Source: Moorella thermoacetica (GTDB taxonomy: Bacteria > Bacillota > DSM-521 > Neomoorellales > Neomoorellaceae). From it: 64,000 nucleotides of DNA. Below are positions 8,017-63,780 of the stretch, one piece after another. The stretch lies in assembly GCF_001267405.1 (NCBI RefSeq), contig NZ_CP012369.1:1762001-1826000 (forward strand). The letters are read 5' to 3'. The translations under genes were made by a program, and so were the position numbers. The notes under the pieces are model-generated. The model had not been told where the DNA came from. It saw only the letters and a program-made list of their open reading frames with translations, and did not search any database. Within the stretch, counting starts at the first letter, position 1; each line of letters opens with the position of its first letter.

Positions 8017-8874
8017 CTAAAACTCTTCTTCCTCCGGGGCCTCCAGGAACTCCTGGACAAATGGGGGAAGGGAAAAGGCGGCCTGGTGAATGGCCGGGGT
8101 ATAATAACGGGTCGCAATCTTGGGGGCCTGTCTCCAATCGACCTCCAGAGGGTCATACTTCTTGCTCCCCAGGCTGAAGGCCCAAAGACCACCCGGATAG
8201 GTGGGCACCGTGGTCAGGTATAGCCTGGCTATGGGGAAGATCTCCTTGAGGTCGCGCTGGATCCGGCGGATAAGCCTGCTGTTAAAGATAGGGGATTCCG
8301 TCTGGGCGACGAATACACCATCGGCTTTTAAAGCCCGGTAGACGTTACGGTAAAACTCAGCGCTGAAGAGGCCCACTGCCGGCCCGATGGGGTCGGTAGA
8401 GTCGACGATAATTACGTCATAAGTATTCTCCCGCTGGCGGACGTGCTCGATGCCGTCTTCAAAGCGGATCTCCACCCGGGCGTCGTCTAAGCCGCAGGCG
8501 ATCTCCGGCAGGTACTCGCGGGCATTGGCCACCACCCGGGCGTCAATCTCCACCAGGGTAACCTTCTCAATTGAAGGGTGTTTGACAATTTCCCGGACCA
8601 CGCCGCCGTCGCCGCCACCGATAACCAGGGCGGTCCTGGGGTTGGGATGGGTATTCAAGGGCACGTGGGCGATCATCTCATGATAGAAGAACTCGTCCTT
8701 AACGGTCGTCTGGATAATATTGTCCAGAAGGAGCATGCGGCCGTAGGCTTCCGTATCCACCACGGCCAGCTCCTGGTAGGGGGTTTTTTCATGATGCAGG
8801 GTTTGGTTCAGACGAACGGAAATCGCCAGGTCCGGTGTCTGTAGTTCTGAAAACCAAATACCGCGCAAAGCCAA
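8017..8874 (-). CDS. speE: Spermidine synthase (polyamine aminopropyltransferase)
   Basis: A 285-residue enzyme that transfers the aminopropyl group of decarboxylated S-adenosylmethionine to putrescine. The Rossmann SAM motif [13 protein letters not shown] (about residue 83), the acidic VEIDARVV and the catalytic [10 protein letters not shown] (about 155) are all present, as is the N-terminal beta-strand domain. The start is TTG at 8874, supported by AAAGGAGA six bases upstream; no ATG fits. A plausible promoter lies just upstream at 8896-8924. Co-transcribed with speB. Confidence 0.95.
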
Positions 8875-8895
8875 TCTCTCCTTTCTTCAGGGTGT

Positions 8896-8924
8896 AGTTT
8901 AACAAAAATCGCCCGTCGCCACAA
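8896..8924 (-). promoter_or_regulatory. Probable promoter of speE-speB
   Basis: On the minus strand TTGTGG and TAAACT are spaced by 17 bases, with the -10 box 22 bases before the TTG start of speE. Three -35 bases and four -10 bases match consensus best, so this is moderate support. Confidence 0.5.
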
Positions 8925-8943
8925 GTTATTTTCCGCCAGGGGT

Positions 8944-9456
8944 TTAAATAATACCCATCACTGCCTGGGCTATGCTGACGTTATGGATGTTCAGGCGCAG
9001 GAGGTGGTTAATGAGCTCCATATGGACGGAGGTGGTTTCCAGGCTGAGACGATTCTCCCGCTGCAGGCGCTGGAAATGGGAGTAGCGCAGATTCTTCTCC
9101 AGCCGCAGGATCTCCGGGTGGCCGCGGATGACCCGGGCGGCCAGGGCCTGGTCATCACTGGCGAAGGCCTGGATGGCGGAGGTGAAGTTCTCTTTAACCC
9201 TTGTAAACATCTCCTGGAGTTCAGCCTGCCCCTCAGGGGAAAACTCTATGCCACTGGTTTCGATCTTGCGCCACTGGCGGGCCATCTCCACAGTCACGTC
9301 ACCGATATGCTCCAGGTCATTGGCAATGTAAAGCAGCCTGGTCTGGGCCACCATCTGTTCCTCACTCAAGTTATCATGGTTCATATTGGCCAGGTACCGG
9401 GCGATGGCCTTGTAGAGGTAGTCGAGGGTACCGTCCAGGCGGCGCAGTTTCTCCAA
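8944..9456 (-). CDS. PhoU-like domain, severed C-terminal part of the Na/Pi cotransporter
   Basis: An all-helical 170-residue piece matching the cytoplasmic PhoU-like tail of NptA/PNaS-type cotransporters (for example ANDLEHIGDVTVEMARQW, typical of PhoU helices). It is in exactly the same frame as the transporter upstream and is separated from it only by one TGA (9484-9486) and nine codons. Residue spacing across the TGA matches intact homologues as I remember them, so this is most likely one gene cut by a nonsense change. The TTG at 9456 has GGGAGG eight bases upstream, so a separate PhoU-like protein may still be translated. Treating it as an independent gene is the alternative. Confidence 0.7.
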   Translation of the reverse strand: MEKLRRLDGTLDYLYKAIARYLANMNHDNLSEEQMVAQTRLLYIANDLEHIGDVTVEMARQWRKIETSGIEFSPEGQAELQEMFTRVKENFTSAIQAFASDDQALAARVIRGHPEILRLEKNLRYSHFQRLQRENRLSLETTSVHMELINHLLRLNIHNVSIAQAVMGII

Positions 9457-9483
9457 CAGGTCAACCTCCCGTTCGGCCAGGGG

Positions 9484-10551
9484 TCACATGACCCGGGGGA
9501 ACATCTCCTCCCTGATAATCCCGGCCATGCGCAGAAGTTCCCGGGTCACCCCTGCCAGGGCCAGTTCCGGCACGTTCAGAAGGGAGGTGTCCAGATACTT
9601 GGCTACCTTTTCCTCCTCGGGAGCATCGGGCAGGAGCCTTTCCATCAGGCGGCCTACCATGGGCGTAAAGGGAATAAAGACCAGCATGTTTATAATGTTA
9701 AACAGGGTATGGCCGTTGGCCACCTGGCGGGCAACGTCCGTGGAAGTAAGGCGGGACAGGCCGGCATAGAGGCCCAGGAAGGGTAAAAAGAGGAGAACGC
9801 CCGCGAGTTTAAAAAAGAAATGGGCCAGGGCTACTCGCTTGGCCTCCCGGGAAAGGGCGATGCTGGAGATAAAGGCCGTGGCTGTGGTCCCCAGGTTGGC
9901 GCCCAGGACCAGGGCCAGGGCCGGTTCCAGGGCCAGGCCGCCCTGGGCCGCCAGGGTCATGGCCACCACCACCGGGGCGGCGCTGCCCTGGACAATGGCC
10001 GTAAAGAGGGTGGCCGCCAGCATCATCATCCAGGGATGGGCCGCCAGGCGCTGCAGGACGGCGGTAAAACCGGGTATGGTGCTAAAGGGCGCTATAGCCG
10101 TACCCATGAGGGCGGCACCATAAAAAATAAGGCCAAACCCGAGGATGGCCTGGCCAAGGTAACGCCAGCGCAGGCGCCGGGCGGCGAGATATGGGATGAG
10201 ACCGGCAACCACCGCCCAGAGGGAATAGTCGCTGAGGCGAAAGGCAATGAGCTGGGCCGTAAGGGTGGAGCCGATAGCCGCACCCAGGATGACCCCCAGG
10301 GCCTGGCCCAGGCTCATGAGGCCGGCGCTAACGAAGCCTACCAGAAGCACGGTGGTGACGGCGCTGGTTTGCAGGAAGATGGTAACCACCAGCCCGGCCA
10401 GCATGCCGTAGAAACGATTCCTGGTCACCGTCCCCAGGAGTTGCTGCACCTGGCGGGCGGCCGCCTTTTGCAAGCCGGTGCTGATGAGGTTCATGCCATA
10501 AAGGAAGAAGGCCAGGCCTCCCAGCAGCCCGGTCGCAACGGTAAAAAGCAT
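9484..10551 (-). CDS. Na/Pi cotransporter, membrane part (truncated by in-frame TGA)
   Basis: A 355-residue hydrophobic protein of the sodium-dependent phosphate cotransporter family. The two inverted repeats are recognisable: LQTSAVTTVLLVGFVSAG (about residue 61) and IVQGSAAPVVVAMTLAA (about 187), with GANLGTTATAFISS between further membrane helices. In most bacterial members a PhoU-like cytoplasmic domain follows in the same chain; here the chain stops at TGA 9484-9486 and the PhoU part continues in the same frame. ATG 10551 is chosen because of the GGAGG seven bases upstream; a GTG lies one codon earlier. It is 21 bases downstream of phoU, so these genes form one transcript. It would move phosphate (or a similar anion) across the membrane. 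Confidence 0.85.
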   Translation of the reverse strand: MLFTVATGLLGGLAFFLYGMNLISTGLQKAAARQVQQLLGTVTRNRFYGMLAGLVVTIFLQTSAVTTVLLVGFVSAGLMSLGQALGVILGAAIGSTLTAQLIAFRLSDYSLWAVVAGLIPYLAARRLRWRYLGQAILGFGLIFYGAALMGTAIAPFSTIPGFTAVLQRLAAHPWMMMLAATLFTAIVQGSAAPVVVAMTLAAQGGLALEPALALVLGANLGTTATAFISSIALSREAKRVALAHFFFKLAGVLLFLPFLGLYAGLSRLTSTDVARQVANGHTLFNIINMLVFIPFTPMVGRLMERLLPDAPEEEKVAKYLDTSLLNVPELALAGVTRELLRMAGIIREEMFPRVM

Positions 10552-44616: not shown

Positions 44617-47181
44617 CTAACCCCAAAGAATCAGGCCGCTCTGGTAGGGATGAACCTGGTCTGCATGACGCGGCAACACCCGCAGGTTGTAGCCCTGGCG
44701 TCCCCCTCGACGGCAGGGGATGACGCCGCTATACAGGTACCTTCCTTCGCCCTGATCCTGGTACTGGATCATGGTCTCCTTCTCTCCGGTCACAATTTCA
44801 CCGCCGGCGTCAACCGGGCCGTAATAGAGTTCTACCGTCACATCCTCCGGCTGTAGGAAGCCCAAGAAAACCCGGGCCCGGACCTTCAGGCTACCACCCA
44901 CGATCAGATCCCCTTCCCTGTCGTCCTCCACCCCCTCAATCCTCACGGCCGGCCACCAGTCCCGGACCCGGCTCCGCCAGCCGGCCAACTCCTTTAACCG
45001 CTCCTGGTTGCCGGCCTGCAACCTCTGGTAAAGCCGGGCGGCAGGTTCGTAAAACTGCCGGCTGTATTCCGCCACCATCCTGTGGGTATTGAACACCGGC
45101 CCGTAGGCCCTGATGGACCTTTTCATCATCTCCACCCAGGCCGCGGGCAGGCCCCCGGCGTCTCGCTCGTAAAAGAGGGGGACTATCTCCTTCTCCAGCA
45201 AGTTATAAAGGGCCTCCCCTTCTACCGCGTCCTGGTAGCCGGTATCCTCGTAAACCGCGCCGGAACCAATGGCCCAGCCGGTATCCGGGGTCCAGGCTTC
45301 GGCCCACCAGCCATCCAGGGTGCTGGCATGGAGGGCGCCGTTCAGAACGGCCTTCATGCCGCTGGTACTGCTGGCCTCCAGGGGCCGTCGCGGGTTACCC
45401 AGCCACAAGTCGACACCCTGGACCAGATGACGGGCCACCTGCAGGCCATAATCCTCCAGGAAGATCAAACGACCACGGAAGGCCTCCTCCCTGGTAAAGG
45501 CCGTTATCTGCCGGATGAGCTCCTTCCCCTCTTCGTCCCTGGGGTGGGCCTTGCCGGCATAGATGATCTGGACCGGCCGCCGGGAGTCCCCCAGGATTCT
45601 GGCCAAACGTTCCGGGTTACGCAGGAGCAGGGCCGGCCGTTTATAGGCAGCGAAACGGCGGGCAAAACCGATGGTCAATGCCCCTGGATCGAGAACCCCT
45701 TCCAGGGCGGCTATCTCCCTGGGCCCGGCCCCCCACTCCCGGAGCTGGGCCGCCAATCGCCGCCGGGCAAAGGCCAGGAGTTCCCGCCGCTGTTCTTCGT
45801 GAACCTGCCAGAGTTCCCGGGCCGGTATGCCTGCCACCCCCGCCCAGCTGGCCGGGGAGGCCGGGTCCTCCCGCCAGGCCGTTCCCAGGTAGCGATCGTA
45901 GAGGGCGGCCATCTTTTCTCCCACCCAGGAGGTGGTATGGACACCGTTGGTAATGGCGCCAATGGGAATCTCGGCTACCGGCACTCCCGGCCAAATTACC
46001 TGCCACATCCGGCGTGCCGTCTGGCCGTGGAGCTGGCTGACGCCGTTGGCCCAGGCCGACAGGCGTAAGGCCAGTACGGCCATATTGAAGGGTTCCTGCT
46101 GGTTATTGGGGTCCTGCCGGCCCAGGGCCAGGAATTCGTGGCGGGAAAGACCCAGGGACTGGTAATATTCGGTGAAATATTTGTCCATTAGATAAGGGGG
46201 AAAGACATCGATACCGGCCGGCACCGGGGTATGGGTGGTAAAGATGTTACTGCAGGTAGCCAGTTCCCGGGCCGACGCCAGATCTAGTCCATACCGCGCC
46301 TGCAACTGCCGGATCCTTTCCAGGCCCAGGAAGGCCGAATGGCCTTCATTCAGGTGAAAGATAGTGGCGTTGATACCCAGGGCCGCCAGGGCCCGCACGC
46401 CGCCGATGCCCAGGAGGATCTCCTGCTGAATCCGTTTTTCCAGGTCGCCGCCGTAAAGCCGGTCGGTAATCAACCGGTCCGCCTCCAGGTTGCCGGGGCA
46501 ATCGCTGTCCAGGAGGTAAAGGTTGAGGCGGCCGACCCGAGCCCGCCAGACCCTGGCCCGGACCTGGCGATCCGGGTCCGGAAAGTTCACCTGCACCTCC
46601 AGGGGCGAGCCGTCGGCCCGGCGCTCCAGTTCCAGGGGTAGCTGGTAGAAATCATAGCGGGAATAAACCTCCCGTTGCTGCCCCCGGCGGTCGAGGCGCT
46701 GGCGGAAGTAACCCTCGCGATACAGGAGGCCTACCCCTACCAAGGGCAGGCCCAGGTCGCTGGCCGACTTCAGGTGGTCTCCGGCGAGGAACCCCAGCCC
46801 CCCGGCATATATGGGCAGGGCCTCGCTCAGGCCGAACTCGGCAGAAAAATAGGCAATAACCTGATTGCTTTCCAGCCCGGGAAGGTTGCCCCGGTTCACC
46901 GGGGCGCCCAGGTAGGTGCGGTACTGCTGCCACACCTGTTCCAGCCTGCCGGTATATTGAGGGTCCCTGGCGACCGCCGTTAATCTGGCCGCCAGCAGTA
47001 ACCTCAGTAAGAGTTCGGAGTTATGACCGGTCTCCTCCCAGAGGTCGGGGTCCAGGTCCCGGAAAAGGGCCGCTGTTTCCGGGTACCTGGGCCAGTAAAG
47101 ACTAGCGGCCAGATCCCGGAGGGGCTTAAGTTTTTCCGGCAAAACCGGCTGGACAAAGAAGATATGGGGTGAAGGCATCAT
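44617..47181 (-). CDS. glgP: Alpha-glucan (glycogen/maltodextrin) phosphorylase
   Basis: An 854-residue GT35 phosphorylase of the thermophile/archaeal type, releasing glucose 1-phosphate. It starts with a DUF3417-like N-terminal region (LRDLAASLYWPRYPETAALF). Substrate and PLP regions include FSAEFGLSEALPIYAGGLG, HLNEGHSAFLGLERI, GFARRFAAYKRPALLL and SSTSGMKAVLNGALHASTLD with the PLP Lys. GAAGGAGAG precedes ATG 47181. It lies 107 bases after the GT4 frame; no clear promoter was found there, so it is probably co-transcribed. Confidence 0.95.
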   Translation of the reverse strand: MMPSPHIFFVQPVLPEKLKPLRDLAASLYWPRYPETAALFRDLDPDLWEETGHNSELLLRLLLAARLTAVARDPQYTGRLEQVWQQYRTYLGAPVNRGNLPGLESNQVIAYFSAEFGLSEALPIYAGGLGFLAGDHLKSASDLGLPLVGVGLLYREGYFRQRLDRRGQQREVYSRYDFYQLPLELERRADGSPLEVQVNFPDPDRQVRARVWRARVGRLNLYLLDSDCPGNLEADRLITDRLYGGDLEKRIQQEILLGIGGVRALAALGINATIFHLNEGHSAFLGLERIRQLQARYGLDLASARELATCSNIFTTHTPVPAGIDVFPPYLMDKYFTEYYQSLGLSRHEFLALGRQDPNNQQEPFNMAVLALRLSAWANGVSQLHGQTARRMWQVIWPGVPVAEIPIGAITNGVHTTSWVGEKMAALYDRYLGTAWREDPASPASWAGVAGIPARELWQVHEEQRRELLAFARRRLAAQLREWGAGPREIAALEGVLDPGALTIGFARRFAAYKRPALLLRNPERLARILGDSRRPVQIIYAGKAHPRDEEGKELIRQITAFTREEAFRGRLIFLEDYGLQVARHLVQGVDLWLGNPRRPLEASSTSGMKAVLNGALHASTLDGWWAEAWTPDTGWAIGSGAVYEDTGYQDAVEGEALYNLLEKEIVPLFYERDAGGLPAAWVEMMKRSIRAYGPVFNTHRMVAEYSRQFYEPAARLYQRLQAGNQERLKELAGWRSRVRDWWPAVRIEGVEDDREGDLIVGGSLKVRARVFLGFLQPEDVTVELYYGPVDAGGEIVTGEKETMIQYQDQGEGRYLYSGVIPCRRGGRQGYNLRVLPRHADQVHPYQSGLILWG

Positions 47182-47288: not shown

Positions 47289-48350
47289 CTAACTGGCGAT
47301 CAAAGAGTTCTCCCGGAGAACGCCCCGGTAAAGGGCCAGGGTTTGCCGGGCCACGGCCTCCCAGGTATAATCCCGGTAAACCCGGGCCTGGCCGCTACGG
47401 CCCAGCTCGGCGGCCAGGTCGGGGTTCTGGAAAATTGTTACCAGGCGACGCTCCAGGTCGGCGACATCTCCGGGGTTGAAGGTCAAGCCGGTACGGTTGT
47501 CTTCCACCACCTCGGCCAGGCCGCCCGTCCGGGATACGATCACCGGTATCCCGGCAGCCATGGCCTCCAGGGCGACAATACCAAAGGGCTCATAGAGGCT
47601 GGGGAACACGGCCACCCGGGACCGGGCCAGGAGCCGATTACGAACCTCCTCGGAAACAAAACCGGTAAACTCAACCCTGTCGGCCAGACCCAGGTTGTTA
47701 GCCATGGTTTGCAGTTCTCCAGCGTAGGGACCGGCCCCGGCGACGATTAACCTGGCTCCCGGGTAAAGTCGCTTAAGGCGCGCCAGGGCGGCCAGGAGGA
47801 CCTGGACCCCCTTCTCCACCACCAGGCGGCCCACAAAAAGAATGGTCTGGCTGTCCCGGCAGGGGGGAACCGGGGGTATGGGCCGGACACCATTGGGAAT
47901 CACGGTTATCTCCGACCGGGGCTGAAACAGGCGTCTGATTTCTTCTTCCATATAGCGGCTGCAGCAGATTAACCGGTCTGCACCGTTCACCAGCCCCGAC
48001 TCAATATGGTGGATGGCCTGCTGGATGCGGTTATGGAGACCGTGGTTACGGCCGGCTTCGGTGGCGTGGATGGTGGCTACCAGGGGTACCCTGGCCGACT
48101 CCTGGAGTTCCCGGGCGCCGTAGGCCACCAGCCAGTCGTGGGCATGGAGGATCCAATTCCGGCCGGGATAGGCGGCCAGCACCTCTTGGCCGGCATCGGC
48201 CAGGGCCAGGTTAAACTGCAACACCCAGGAGAGGAAATTAATTTCTTTGTCGGGCTGCTGGTAGGTGGGCACATAATGCAGGTAAACACCCTCCTGGACG
48301 GTTGAAACCCTCCGGTCGCCTGGGGCCCGGGTCAGGACGTGGACATCCAC
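47289..48350 (-). CDS. GT4 glycosyltransferase (glycogen-synthase-like), frame separated from its N-terminus
   Basis: A 353-residue piece of a GT-B family 4 transferase. It contains HAHDWLVAYGARELQE, IPNGVRPIPPVPP, ILFVGRLVVEKGVQVLLAAL and the donor site SLYEPFGIVALEAMAAGIPV. Its expected first 37 residues (ILMLSWEFPPRHVGGLG...) are encoded at the 3' end of the preceding GH57 frame, so the GTG at 48350 is not a natural start: the two frames should be joined through a one-base shift near 48363-48375. Function is probably alpha-glucan chain extension from ADP- or UDP-glucose, alone or within a GH57-GT4 fusion. Confidence 0.82.
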   Translation of the reverse strand: MDVHVLTRAPGDRRVSTVQEGVYLHYVPTYQQPDKEINFLSWVLQFNLALADAGQEVLAAYPGRNWILHAHDWLVAYGARELQESARVPLVATIHATEAGRNHGLHNRIQQAIHHIESGLVNGADRLICCSRYMEEEIRRLFQPRSEITVIPNGVRPIPPVPPCRDSQTILFVGRLVVEKGVQVLLAALARLKRLYPGARLIVAGAGPYAGELQTMANNLGLADRVEFTGFVSEEVRNRLLARSRVAVFPSLYEPFGIVALEAMAAGIPVIVSRTGGLAEVVEDNRTGLTFNPGDVADLERRLVTIFQNPDLAAELGRSGQARVYRDYTWEAVARQTLALYRGVLRENSLIAS

Positions 48351-50080
48351 CCCCTGGCGGGCCAGGGCCTGGCCCAGTCCCGGACGTGGATACCCAGGCC
48401 GCCAACATGGCGGGGTGGGAATTCCCAGCTAAGCATAAGAATTCCCGGCCTGGTTTTATTATGAACCTCGGGCCGGCAGGCTACTCCCCTTCCGGCTGGC
48501 CGGTAGAGGCGAAAATCGAGGCCGGGGAAGATATTGTCCGCCGCCTCCAGGCGGGCCAGAAAATCTTCATCCAGGCGATCTCGCTCATAATCCTGGCAGA
48601 GTTTAAAAAAAGCCCCCAGGTGTTCCCGGAGGCGACGCCGGGCATAGTCCACCGTCGTCCCGGTGGTGAGGATAAAGGACCAGTCGCTACTCTGGGCCAG
48701 GAGCAATTCCCTGGCAGCCTGGTTCAGTGCCCGCTCCTGCAGGGAGCCGGGGCGGGGATTGGCGGCAGCCAGCTTGATCATGGCCCTCTCCGCCCGGTGG
48801 AGGTGGAGATAAAGCCAGTCGTTGGCCTGGTTCAACCAGACGTGGTTATAACCCCCTTCTCCCCAGCTGGAAGGACCCATGGTCACTTCCTGGCGGGGCG
48901 GATACTGCTCCAGGTAAGCCGAAAGAGAGGTCAGGGAGACCCGGCTTTCGCCTGCCAGGCGCAGGACATCGGCCAGCCAGTCCGGCCCCTCAAACCACCA
49001 GTGGCCAAAGAGCTCGGCGTCATAGGGAGCGACGACGACAGGCTTATCCTGGGTCCTGCCGGCCCAGTAAGCCAGCTGTTTCTCCCGGTTGGCGATAAAG
49101 TCCCGGGCATGCTCCCGGGCCCGCTCCCGGGCGGCCCGGTAGTCATAGGGCTCCTTGACCCCGGTTTTACCGGTAATCCGGTAGTATTTAAAGCCGGTAT
49201 CTCCCCGGATCCCCCCCACCAGGTAGGGTGCCAGGTAATTGAAATCCAGGTCGTAACCAATATCCCGGTAGAACTCGCGGTACACCGGATCTCCGGGATA
49301 ACCCTCGGTCCGGCTCCAAACCTGGTGGGAAGTCTCCCAGTCCCGCCCGAAGACAGCCACGCCGCCCACCCTGACCGGAGCATAAACAGCCGATTTTACC
49401 ACGGGGGTGGCATTTAACATGCCGTGGCTGGCGACGATGAAATACTTAATCCCCTCGGACCGGAGGATTTTTTCAATCCCTGGGGTATAGCCGCACTCCG
49501 GCAGCCAGAGCCCGTCCGGGACAAAGCCCATGGTCATGCCGAAAAGATCCAGGGCTGCCCGCACCTGGGCTCGCCTGGCCTCATCGGTAAGCATCAGGGG
49601 AAGGTAACCATGGGTAGCCGCGGTGGTTATCAGTTCCAGGCGACCCTGTTCCCGCAGCCTTTTTATAGGCGCCAGTAAATTCCCCCGGTAGGTTTCTTTG
49701 AAGGCCCGGTCGACGAGAGTCAGGCGCCGGTGATAAAACTCCGCCAGGGGGGCGAAAGTCGGGTCACCCCTGGTCCGCTCAATTTCCCGGCCGGCCAGTT
49801 CCCTGAGGTTATCCAGGTAACGACCGTAGCGCTCCCCCAGGGCAGGTTCCATCAACATGCTGATGAGGGGCGGCGACAGGGAGAGGGTGAGGTGAAAGTC
49901 TAACCCCTCGCCGGCCAGCTCCTCCCAGCTCAGGATCAAGGGCAGGTAGGACTCCGTCAGGGCTTCGAAAAGCCATTTCTCTTCCAGGCTGACATAGGGC
50001 TCCCGGTTATGGACAAAGGGCAGATGAGCATGGAGCACCAGCGACAGATAACCTAGGTTATCACCCGACCGGGTAACCAT
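48332..50080 (-). CDS. GH57 alpha-glucan branching enzyme (DUF1957), frame-shifted into a GT4 domain
   Basis: The first 540 or so residues form a GH57 1,4-alpha-glucan branching enzyme: LHAHLPFVHNREPYVSLEE at the start, DGLWLPECGYTPGIE with the nucleophile Glu, APYDAELFGHWWFEGP with the catalytic Asp, then the DUF1957 helical domain (GEGGYNHVWLNQANDWLYL). From about residue 545 the chain continues as the N-terminus of a GT4 transferase (GILMLSWEFPPRHVGGLG), then runs out of frame into ARPWPARGWMSTS and stops. GGAGG precedes ATG 50080. It makes alpha-1,6 branches in glycogen; whether the transferase part is made depends on the frameshift being real. Confidence 0.88.
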   Translation of the reverse strand: MVTRSGDNLGYLSLVLHAHLPFVHNREPYVSLEEKWLFEALTESYLPLILSWEELAGEGLDFHLTLSLSPPLISMLMEPALGERYGRYLDNLRELAGREIERTRGDPTFAPLAEFYHRRLTLVDRAFKETYRGNLLAPIKRLREQGRLELITTAATHGYLPLMLTDEARRAQVRAALDLFGMTMGFVPDGLWLPECGYTPGIEKILRSEGIKYFIVASHGMLNATPVVKSAVYAPVRVGGVAVFGRDWETSHQVWSRTEGYPGDPVYREFYRDIGYDLDFNYLAPYLVGGIRGDTGFKYYRITGKTGVKEPYDYRAARERAREHARDFIANREKQLAYWAGRTQDKPVVVAPYDAELFGHWWFEGPDWLADVLRLAGESRVSLTSLSAYLEQYPPRQEVTMGPSSWGEGGYNHVWLNQANDWLYLHLHRAERAMIKLAAANPRPGSLQERALNQAARELLLAQSSDWSFILTTGTTVDYARRRLREHLGAFFKLCQDYERDRLDEDFLARLEAADNIFPGLDFRLYRPAGRGVACRPEVHNKTRPGILMLSWEFPPRHVGGLGIHVRDWARPWPARGWMSTS

Positions 50081-50168: not shown

Positions 50169-50618
50169 TCAGGACCAGCTAAAGTTACTCCCGGACTGTT
50201 GGCCCTCCGGGGGGATTGTCCAATCAGGGTTCAGACCCGGAGGTAATTGCCGGGCCCCGGCAGGTTCTACCGTCCGGCCGGGCTGGATCTGGAAAACCGG
50301 GGTCCGGGAAAAGAGGACGAATTCCCCCTCCGGGCTCTGGGCGCCGAGTTCTAGGTGATAAGCGGCACGATCGTCGAGGTTGGAAAAGTAACGCCAGCCG
50401 GGCTCCAGGCTTTCCAGGGTCAACTGCTGCTCCGGCAGGGGGCAATCCTGGCGGCAGAGACGCAGGGTCAGTTCCATCTCCGGCCGCACATGGTGGAAAA
50501 AGTCTACCAGGATCCGGATTCGGGCGGGGGTAAAATCCCAGTAAACATAGAGGGTGTGTAAATCCTGGGGCAGGCATATCAGGGCGTTCTGGTGGTAGCC
50601 ATGGGCCAGATCAAGCAC
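50169..50618 (-). CDS. DUF4912-family protein
   Basis: A 149-residue soluble protein of the DUF4912 type, with DLHTLYVYWDFTPARI near the N-terminus and AYHLELGAQSPEGEFVLF further on. These proteins often sit next to GH57 and glycogen genes and look like small beta-sandwich modules; function unknown. GTG 50618 has GAGGGG six bases upstream. It heads the glycogen transcript, 88 bases before the GH57 gene. Confidence 0.82.
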   Translation of the reverse strand: MLDLAHGYHQNALICLPQDLHTLYVYWDFTPARIRILVDFFHHVRPEMELTLRLCRQDCPLPEQQLTLESLEPGWRYFSNLDDRAAYHLELGAQSPEGEFVLFSRTPVFQIQPGRTVEPAGARQLPPGLNPDWTIPPEGQQSGSNFSWS

Positions 50619-50798: not shown

Positions 50799-52721
50799 AT
50801 GGTTTTTATAAACTTTAATACCTCCCTCCCCGCCGGCGGCCGCCAGAAAATCCATGTCTATTTTATGAGACCCACTGCCCCGGCAGAACCGCCCCGCCAA
50901 AAACTTCGTAATTTAGGTCAGGTACGTCTATACTATAATAGAGAAGAGGGGGTTTTGCCTTTGCTCCACCATCGCCCGGGAATCCGTTTCTGCCAGCCCC
51001 TGGCACCCGACCGGCTCCTCCTGCGCTTAAAAATTGGCCGCCGGGAACAGCAAAGCTGCCAGGTAATCTATGAAGACCGGGGCCTTAAAACGGCCCCCAT
51101 GCATGCCTATGCCCGAACACCCCGTTACCTTTATTACCAGGCTGAGATCAGCCTCTCCCGTCCCTGGCGCTGCCGTTATTTTTTCCGGCTGCGGGAAGGG
51201 GATGGGGATGACCGCTATATCTTTGCCGGTGGTACCGGCCAACAGGGCCGCCCCTTTACCTATCAGTGGACCCCGGCAGATATCTTTACCGTTCCCGACT
51301 GGATCTACGACGCCGTTTCCTATCAAATATTTCCCGATCGCTTTTACAACGGCAACCCGGCCAACGACCCGCCGGGAACCAGGCCCTGGAGCGAAGCCCC
51401 TACCAGGGAAAACTTCTTCGGCGGCGACCTGGAGGGTATCCAGGCGAAGATACCCTATCTAAAGTTTCTGGGGGTCAATGTCCTGTGGCTCAACCCCATT
51501 TTTGCCGCCTCCTCCAACCATCGCTATAACACCCGCGATTACCTGGCCGTGGACCCGGCCCTGGGAGATACCGATACCCTGCGCCGCCTGGTGGCATCCC
51601 TCCATGGCGCCGGCATACGCATCATCCTGGATGGTGTCTTCAACCATACGGGGACCGATTTCTTTGCTTTTAAAGACGTGGTCGCCCGGGGAGCCGGTTC
51701 CCCGTATAAGGACTGGTACTACTTCTATGACTTCCCGGTACGGAGTGAACCCCGGGCCAATTATGCCTGCTGGTGGGATATCCCCAGCCTGCCCAAGCTC
51801 AACGTCAGAAACCCCGAGGTTCGTAATTACCTTCTTCACGTGGCGACCTACTGGCTGTGGGATGCCGGTACCGACGGCTGGCGCCTTGACGTGCCCAATG
51901 AGATCGAGCCGCCCTTCTGGCGGGAGTTTTACCAGCAGGTTAAAGGGACCAATCCGGAAGCCTACATTGTCGGCGAGATCTGGCGCGACGCCCGTTTCTG
52001 GCTGAACGGCCGTTACTTTGACGGGGTGATGAATTACCTCTTCCGGGACCTGGTCCTTGCATACTTCGCCCGGAGGCTTTTTCCCATTTCCACCCTGGAT
52101 ATGCTCCTGGGCCTGGTGCGCCTGCGCTACCCTGAGGCGGCCAATTTCGCCCTGTTAAACCTCCTGGGCAGCCATGACACGGCGCGAATTATCACCGCCT
52201 TCCAGGAAGGGTTGGCCGGCGTTCCCGGACACTCCGGCAGCTACGCCGAGGCCGTAGCCCACCTGCGACCGGCCCTCATCCTGCAGCTCACCTATCCCGG
52301 TGCGCCCCTGATCTACTACGGCGACGAGGTAGGCCTCACCGGCGGCCCGGACCCCGACTGCCGCCGGACCATGCCCTGGGAACCCCGGGACTGGGACCGG
52401 GATCTCCTGAACTTTTACCGGTGCCTGATAAGGTTGCGGCACCAGTTGCGGCCTTTGCGACGGGGATTTTTCCAGCCCCTTTTTACCGACGACCAGGCCG
52501 AGGTCTACGCCTATGCCCGGCGCCTGGAGGGAGAGAAGGTAATTATAATTCTCAATGCCAGCGACCTCCCCCAGACGGTTACCCTGGCGGCAGCCGTCGC
52601 GGGACTGGCTGAGGATAGTACCTGGCGGGACGGCCTGAGCAACCGCCTCCTGGAGGTGAAGGGCGGCCAGATCAGCCTGCCCCTGGACGCCAATTCCGGG
52701 GCCGTTCTCTACCAGGAGTAA
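50799..52721 (+). CDS. GH13 neopullulanase/cyclomaltodextrinase-like alpha-glucosidic hydrolase
   Basis: A 640-residue GH13 enzyme with an N-terminal CBM34-like domain (residues about 30-165), then the barrel beginning WIYDAVSYQIFPDRF. Catalytic regions are DGVFNHTGTDFFAF (I), GWRLDVPNEI with the nucleophile Asp (II), IVGEIWRDARFW with the Glu (III) and LLGSHDTARII with the Asp (IV). It should hydrolyse maltodextrins, cyclodextrins or pullulan inside the cell, as no signal peptide is seen. The start ATG 50799 lacks a good ribosome-binding site; ATG 50865 is another option. It is divergent from the glycogen operon. Confidence 0.92.
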   Translation: MVFINFNTSLPAGGRQKIHVYFMRPTAPAEPPRQKLRNLGQVRLYYNREEGVLPLLHHRPGIRFCQPLAPDRLLLRLKIGRREQQSCQVIYEDRGLKTAPMHAYARTPRYLYYQAEISLSRPWRCRYFFRLREGDGDDRYIFAGGTGQQGRPFTYQWTPADIFTVPDWIYDAVSYQIFPDRFYNGNPANDPPGTRPWSEAPTRENFFGGDLEGIQAKIPYLKFLGVNVLWLNPIFAASSNHRYNTRDYLAVDPALGDTDTLRRLVASLHGAGIRIILDGVFNHTGTDFFAFKDVVARGAGSPYKDWYYFYDFPVRSEPRANYACWWDIPSLPKLNVRNPEVRNYLLHVATYWLWDAGTDGWRLDVPNEIEPPFWREFYQQVKGTNPEAYIVGEIWRDARFWLNGRYFDGVMNYLFRDLVLAYFARRLFPISTLDMLLGLVRLRYPEAANFALLNLLGSHDTARIITAFQEGLAGVPGHSGSYAEAVAHLRPALILQLTYPGAPLIYYGDEVGLTGGPDPDCRRTMPWEPRDWDRDLLNFYRCLIRLRHQLRPLRRGFFQPLFTDDQAEVYAYARRLEGEKVIIILNASDLPQTVTLAAAVAGLAEDSTWRDGLSNRLLEVKGGQISLPLDANSGAVLYQE

Positions 52722-63003: not shown

Positions 63004-63780
63004 CTATTTCTCTTCCAGATCCTCCGGCTGCATGGTATAAGATTGGACCATCACTGGAGTGAAGTTATTAAAGGGGGCCACGGGATACAACTGGCCCGTG
63101 CTCATGAGCAGGCTCTCCATATTCTCTACCAGGGTTCCTAGCATATTGTAAGGTGTCACGAAAACAAGTTCATCCTTCTGGGTACCCCCGAAGGTGCGGT
63201 CGCCGCCACAGGGGAAGCCGATGATGGGCTTTTGTTCTTTTACGGCAAAACCGATGGAGGAACAGAGGGCGGCCTCGGCCACCGTATCGGCTTTGACGGG
63301 TTCCCCGGTCTCGTGAAGGCAGCAGTGGATCAGGCGCATCATCTGGGCCGGGTTGGCGTAGATGACCACTGCGTCGGGGTCTTCTGTTTTATAGCTCTCA
63401 AGGGGGGCGATGTAAATGGCGTCGTAGACCTTACCATTGTCCCCCAGTTTGTAGGTGTTGGCCATGAAACGCCTGCCGGCTTCGACGTCGGCCACATAAC
63501 GCCCCAGGGCGGCTTTACCGCTGGTGAAGCGCTCCGGGGTCTTGATTAGCCCGGTATAGGCGGCGCCGATGGCGCAGACCATGAGGTCCGGGGTGCCGGA
63601 ACTGGCTTTACCCTGGTAACGGGCGGCCGATACCAGCTGGCAGATGTTGACCTTCCAGTTATAAGGCCGGCGGGGCAGGTCTTTCCTGTCCCGGTAGAGC
63701 TTGATCCCCACGATGCCCGTATCCAGGTGGAGAACTTCCGTCAACCTTTTGACCATGAGGGACTTGTCTAAATCAGCCAT
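63004..63780 (-). CDS. DUF169-family protein
   Basis: A 258-residue protein of the DUF169 type, found in anaerobes, function unknown. Typical features are DTGIVGIKLYRDRKDLP near the N-terminus, Cys residues in NICQLVSAARY and DLMVCAIGAA, ADTVAEAALCSSIGFA and GFPCGGDRTFGGTQKDE. Conserved Cys might bind a metal or act in redox chemistry. GGAGGAG precedes ATG 63780, 27 bases after the pyruvate kinase stop on the same strand. Confidence 0.85.
   Translation of the reverse strand: MADLDKSLMVKRLTEVLHLDTGIVGIKLYRDRKDLPRRPYNWKVNICQLVSAARYQGKASSGTPDLMVCAIGAAYTGLIKTPERFTSGKAALGRYVADVEAGRRFMANTYKLGDNGKVYDAIYIAPLESYKTEDPDAVVIYANPAQMMRLIHCCLHETGEPVKADTVAEAALCSSIGFAVKEQKPIIGFPCGGDRTFGGTQKDELVFVTPYNMLGTLVENMESLLMSTGQLYPVAPFNNFTPVMVQSYTMQPEDLEEK

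Follow-up and report, generated by a model that had tools for sequence, protein, structure and literature searches.

The locus examined here lies within a 64,000-nucleotide stretch of the Moorella thermoacetica DSM 521 genome (the window; positions 1,762,001 to 1,826,000 of contig NZ_CP012369.1), and centres on two minus-strand ORFs that encode, in order of transcription, a GH57 and a GT4 protein and that overlap by 19 bases. The features of the locus are as follows, in window coordinates:

44617–47181, minus strand: alpha-glucan phosphorylase gene (PF00343 plus DUF3417), the downstream neighbour on the same strand
47289–48350, minus strand: GT4 half, read from a GTG start to give 353 aa; approximately 31 residues at the start of the GT4 domain are missing, among them those of the GGLG loop
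48332–50080, minus strand: putative GH57 branching-enzyme half, 582 aa, running on into approximately 24 N-terminal residues of the GT4 domain and from there into 15 out-of-frame residues before a stop
48359–48375, no strand: perfect 8-bp inverted repeat (48359–48366 and 48368–48375) with a 1-nt spacer
48376–48378, minus strand: site of a missing base, seen as a gap against all 12 intact fusions
50169–50618, minus strand: DUF4912 ORF, upstream of the fusion
50799–52721, plus strand: divergent GH13 gene of the maltogenic amylase/cyclomaltodextrinase type

Since the neighbouring genes include one for a phosphorylase and, in divergent orientation, a GH13 gene of the amylase type, the locus can be placed in alpha-glucan metabolism. 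The genome additionally holds, at other positions, a GlgA-type gene of family GT5 and, each as a gene of its own, a GT4 and a GH57; a search of the genome returned no GlgE, and no GlgC above the cut-off. The best GlgC-like match, located outside the window (1894029–1895024), is an 824-aa open frame which scores far below the GlgC cut-off.

The upstream ORF matches PF03065 (GH57; 119.9 bits, residues 14–400) and PF09210 (BE_C; 126.7 bits, residues 426–526), both above the cut-off, indicating that the GH57 barrel and the BE_C domain are complete. The motifs WLPEC (from 49507) and PYDAELFGHWW (from 49027), which we take to contain the nucleophile Glu and the acid/base Asp, respectively, are retained and are invariant in 12 relatives, while the nearest solved structure is 2b5d (E 3.5e-131). 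By family membership this half is predicted to be a branching enzyme. Its frame reads through GH57 and BE_C into GILMLSWEFPPRHVGGLGIHVRD, then runs out of frame and terminates at a TGA (48334–48332), so that the two domains of this gene do not share one ORF. The downstream ORF matches the GT4 families PF00534 (150.3 bits) and PF13439 (71.1 bits), the latter match beginning only at profile position 21, which shows that the N-terminus of the GT4 half is missing. The C-terminal motifs E-x7-E (YEPFGIVALE, from 47594) and GRLVVEKG (from 47831) are intact, and the 353-aa product does not comprise a complete GT-B fold with its N-terminal GGLG loop.

When joined across the break, the two products form a protein of 930 aa which aligns with its relatives end to end. 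The two ORFs are thus the halves of one gene from which a single base is missing, as the preliminary description of this DNA had proposed in postulating a GH57-GT4 fusion of about 930 residues broken by a one-base frameshift: the halves are contiguous, and the frame of 12 relatives is open across the site. Chance is excluded as an explanation: the two halves adjoin one another within a single conserved protein, and at the site of the break the alignment columns (H, V, D, L, A, L) are identical throughout the 12 fusions.

A nucleotide alignment with these 12 one-frame relatives places a gap, present in the window alone, between 48378 and 48377, and in a BLAST comparison with DSM 21394 its position is 48377. 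The lesion accordingly falls one to three bases outside the interval of 48363–48375 to which it had initially been assigned. The inverted repeat directly abuts it, with a DNA fold of −16.5 kcal/mol (z −2.4). The earlier view of the site as a GC-rich stretch prone to error or slippage holds in part: the adjacent hairpin is in its favour, but there is no homopolymer at the lesion and no recognisable slippery heptamer (X-XXY-YYZ) near it. Among the 161 loci compared, those with the exact sequence flanking the break all belong to the genome of the window itself.

The closest relative, DSM 21394 (ANIm of 94% to M. thermoacetica and regarded as a separate species; PMC6978639), encodes the fusion in one open 958-aa frame with 95% nucleotide identity. 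A scan of genome contigs for other M. thermoacetica strains gave only DSM 21394 under that name, and plasmid records yielded no match. Of 398 genomes sampled from the phylum, at least 36 had full-length fusions (37 rows of full length), as did 24 of the 80 loci of a second collection; among the genera represented are Brevibacillus, Paenibacillus, Alicyclobacillus, Heliophilum, Pelotomaculum and Desulfotruncus. The intact fusions of DSM 21394, M. mulderi, Desulfotruncus arcticus and Pelotomaculum propionicicum, and likewise those of Heliophilum fasciatum, Paenibacillus, Alicyclobacillus montanus and Lihuaxuella thermophila, agree with the window gene in their two domains, in domain order and in full length, but have one ORF without a frameshift, whereas the window gene is broken. 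As in the window, the intact fusions of Moorella have an alpha-glucan phosphorylase downstream, and in most Moorella relatives the ORF after the fusion has the same C-terminal residues as the phosphorylase. One Moorella genome possesses two intact GH57-GT4 copies, which are 73–74% identical to the GH57 half of the window.

A tree of GT4 sequences (94 rows) puts the window GT4 inside a group that comprises 13 fused sequences of Neomoorellaceae (support 99). Because the window GT4 nests within this fused clade, and because the gene is intact in DSM 21394 and fused in genomes across the phylum, the fusion represents the ancestral condition and its break is derived. An ancestry of split genes was consequently rejected, close relatives being fused wherever the gene is intact. 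The preliminary description had suggested a search for intact fusions in relatives, which has now yielded them, and had regarded relatives with two separate genes as evidence against a broken fusion; no such arrangement was encountered among the close relatives. Over the whole tree at least two changes between the fused and separate states are needed, and a single origin of the fusion is compatible with the well-supported branches. Four loci of Syntrophomonadaceae-type genomes carry a separate GT4 with a divergent, separate GH57 directly after it, the reverse of the domain order of the fusion, and these separate GT4s group with the fused clade of Moorella (support 92).

With regard to family assignment, the solved GH57 branching enzymes (2b5d, 3n8t, 5wu7 and 1ufa/3p0b) share with the window protein the whole GH57 and BE_C domains and the catalytic motifs, but are devoid of a GT4 module, and the window protein does not reach the cut-offs set in NCBIfam for the Thermococcales and Thermus GH57 equivalogs. 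The fused GT4 falls below the cut-off of every curated NCBIfam model shown, its best curated match being TIGR02149 ('glgA_Coryne'; 127.7 bits against a cut-off of 302.4), with whose members it shares the GT4 domain. For this reason, the name 'glycogen synthase' originally given to this half is unproven; the genome also has its separate GT5 GlgA. The mycobacterial GlgM-type GT4 (6tvp) has the GT4 domain in common with the window GT4 and is the second-best solved structure for it, but a GlgM/GlgE role is unlikely given the lack of GlgE in the genome. Mycobacterial Rv3031 (GH57) and Rv3032 (GT4) presumably belong to the same pair of families and act on alpha-1,4-glucan; they are, however, separate proteins, whereas the GH57-GT4 of the Moorella relatives is one polypeptide.

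As to the consequences for the proteins, the predicted course of events is that an ancestral GH57-GT4 fusion gene with a role in alpha-glucan metabolism has recently been shortened by one base at 48376–48378. Translation from the normal start would then yield 582 residues, with the GH57 branching-enzyme module complete, while a functional GT4 module would not be made: in the product from the GTG at 48350, the GT-B fold would be without its first strand and its GGLG loop. Judging from the architecture of that fold, the GT4 half started at this GTG is probably inactive because some 31 residues, the loop among them, are missing. Further glucan enzymes encoded in the genome (the GT5 GlgA, the lone GT4 and the lone GH57) may render such a loss tolerable. 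It could be argued that reinitiation or coupling at the GTG yields two working proteins, and the 19-base overlap is an arrangement that permits coupling, but we regard this as highly improbable: the separate GT4 would have an N-terminal domain without the near-invariant VGGLG...H.RDL region, the purine run touches the start codon with zero spacing, and no close relative is split like the window gene. Equally improbable is a ribosomal −1 slip, such as one on the G run spanning 48350–48354, by which some full-length fusion would be produced. A tRNA slipping on GGG within this G5 run would indeed reach the GT4 frame before the stop; against this, an X-XXY-YYZ heptamer is absent, the hairpin lies upstream rather than downstream of the G run, and the relatives are in frame and hence have no conserved frameshift signal. 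Homopolymer-driven or programmed slippage was rejected on these grounds.

The main choice is between a mutation and an error in the assembly, and we consider a real, recent one-base loss in the lineage of this strain the better explanation, with a probability of roughly 0.6. Indels outside homopolymers are rare in Illumina data. The DSM 521T genome (CP012369; 2,527,564 bp) was assembled from MiSeq reads at 382x coverage, with gaps closed by PCR and Sanger sequencing (PMC4599090), and this depth, together with the position of the lesion outside any homopolymer, favours a real mutation. Across approximately 23 kb aligned with DSM 21394, the lesion is the sole uncompensated indel interior to a long ORF; the others (40846; 44199 and 44248; 63008–63012) fall at the ends of ORFs, where the start site or the limit of the alignment is uncertain, and the assembly therefore does not appear to be generally frame-damaged. 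The abutting hairpin, as the usual context of small deletions, also counts for a mutation, as does decay of the gene elsewhere in the genus: the copy in one congener (G002; 8432–10475 of its locus) is clearly a pseudogene, with two frameshifts and a deletion joining the middle of GT4 to the downstream phosphorylase, and only a separate GH57 was recovered from two others (G001 and G004), which indicates that the gene is dispensable. Relative to DSM 21394, dN/dS is 0.22 for the GH57 half and 0.14 for the GT4 half; the latter shows no relaxed selection, and the lesion is thus either recent or an assembly error. An error, which would leave the organism with an ordinary intact fusion of about 930 codons, is the less probable reading, yet it accounts equally for the low dN/dS and lack of decay in both halves and for the presence of one lesion without a second, and the hairpin could have given rise to Sanger compression, provided that the site fell in one of the PCR-closed gaps. 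On balance, we infer that the mutation is real in the organism and that GT4 activity has been lost.

The frameshift in itself is an ordinary event, and the fusion family, widespread in Bacillota, is of modest interest. Our search of the open-access literature found no characterisation of GH57-GT4 fusions, and no useful literature on Moorella GH57, Moorella glycogen genes or Moth_ locus tags. It is possible, though we propose it tentatively, that the intact fusion represents an undescribed bifunctional enzyme which both elongates and branches alpha-glucan, and which in DSM 521 has been naturally cut back to its branching module. An enzyme combining extension and branching could matter for alpha-glucan synthesis in Moorella, given the complement of glucan genes in this genome, and, if the mutation is confirmed, the strain would constitute a natural comparison without the GT4 half.
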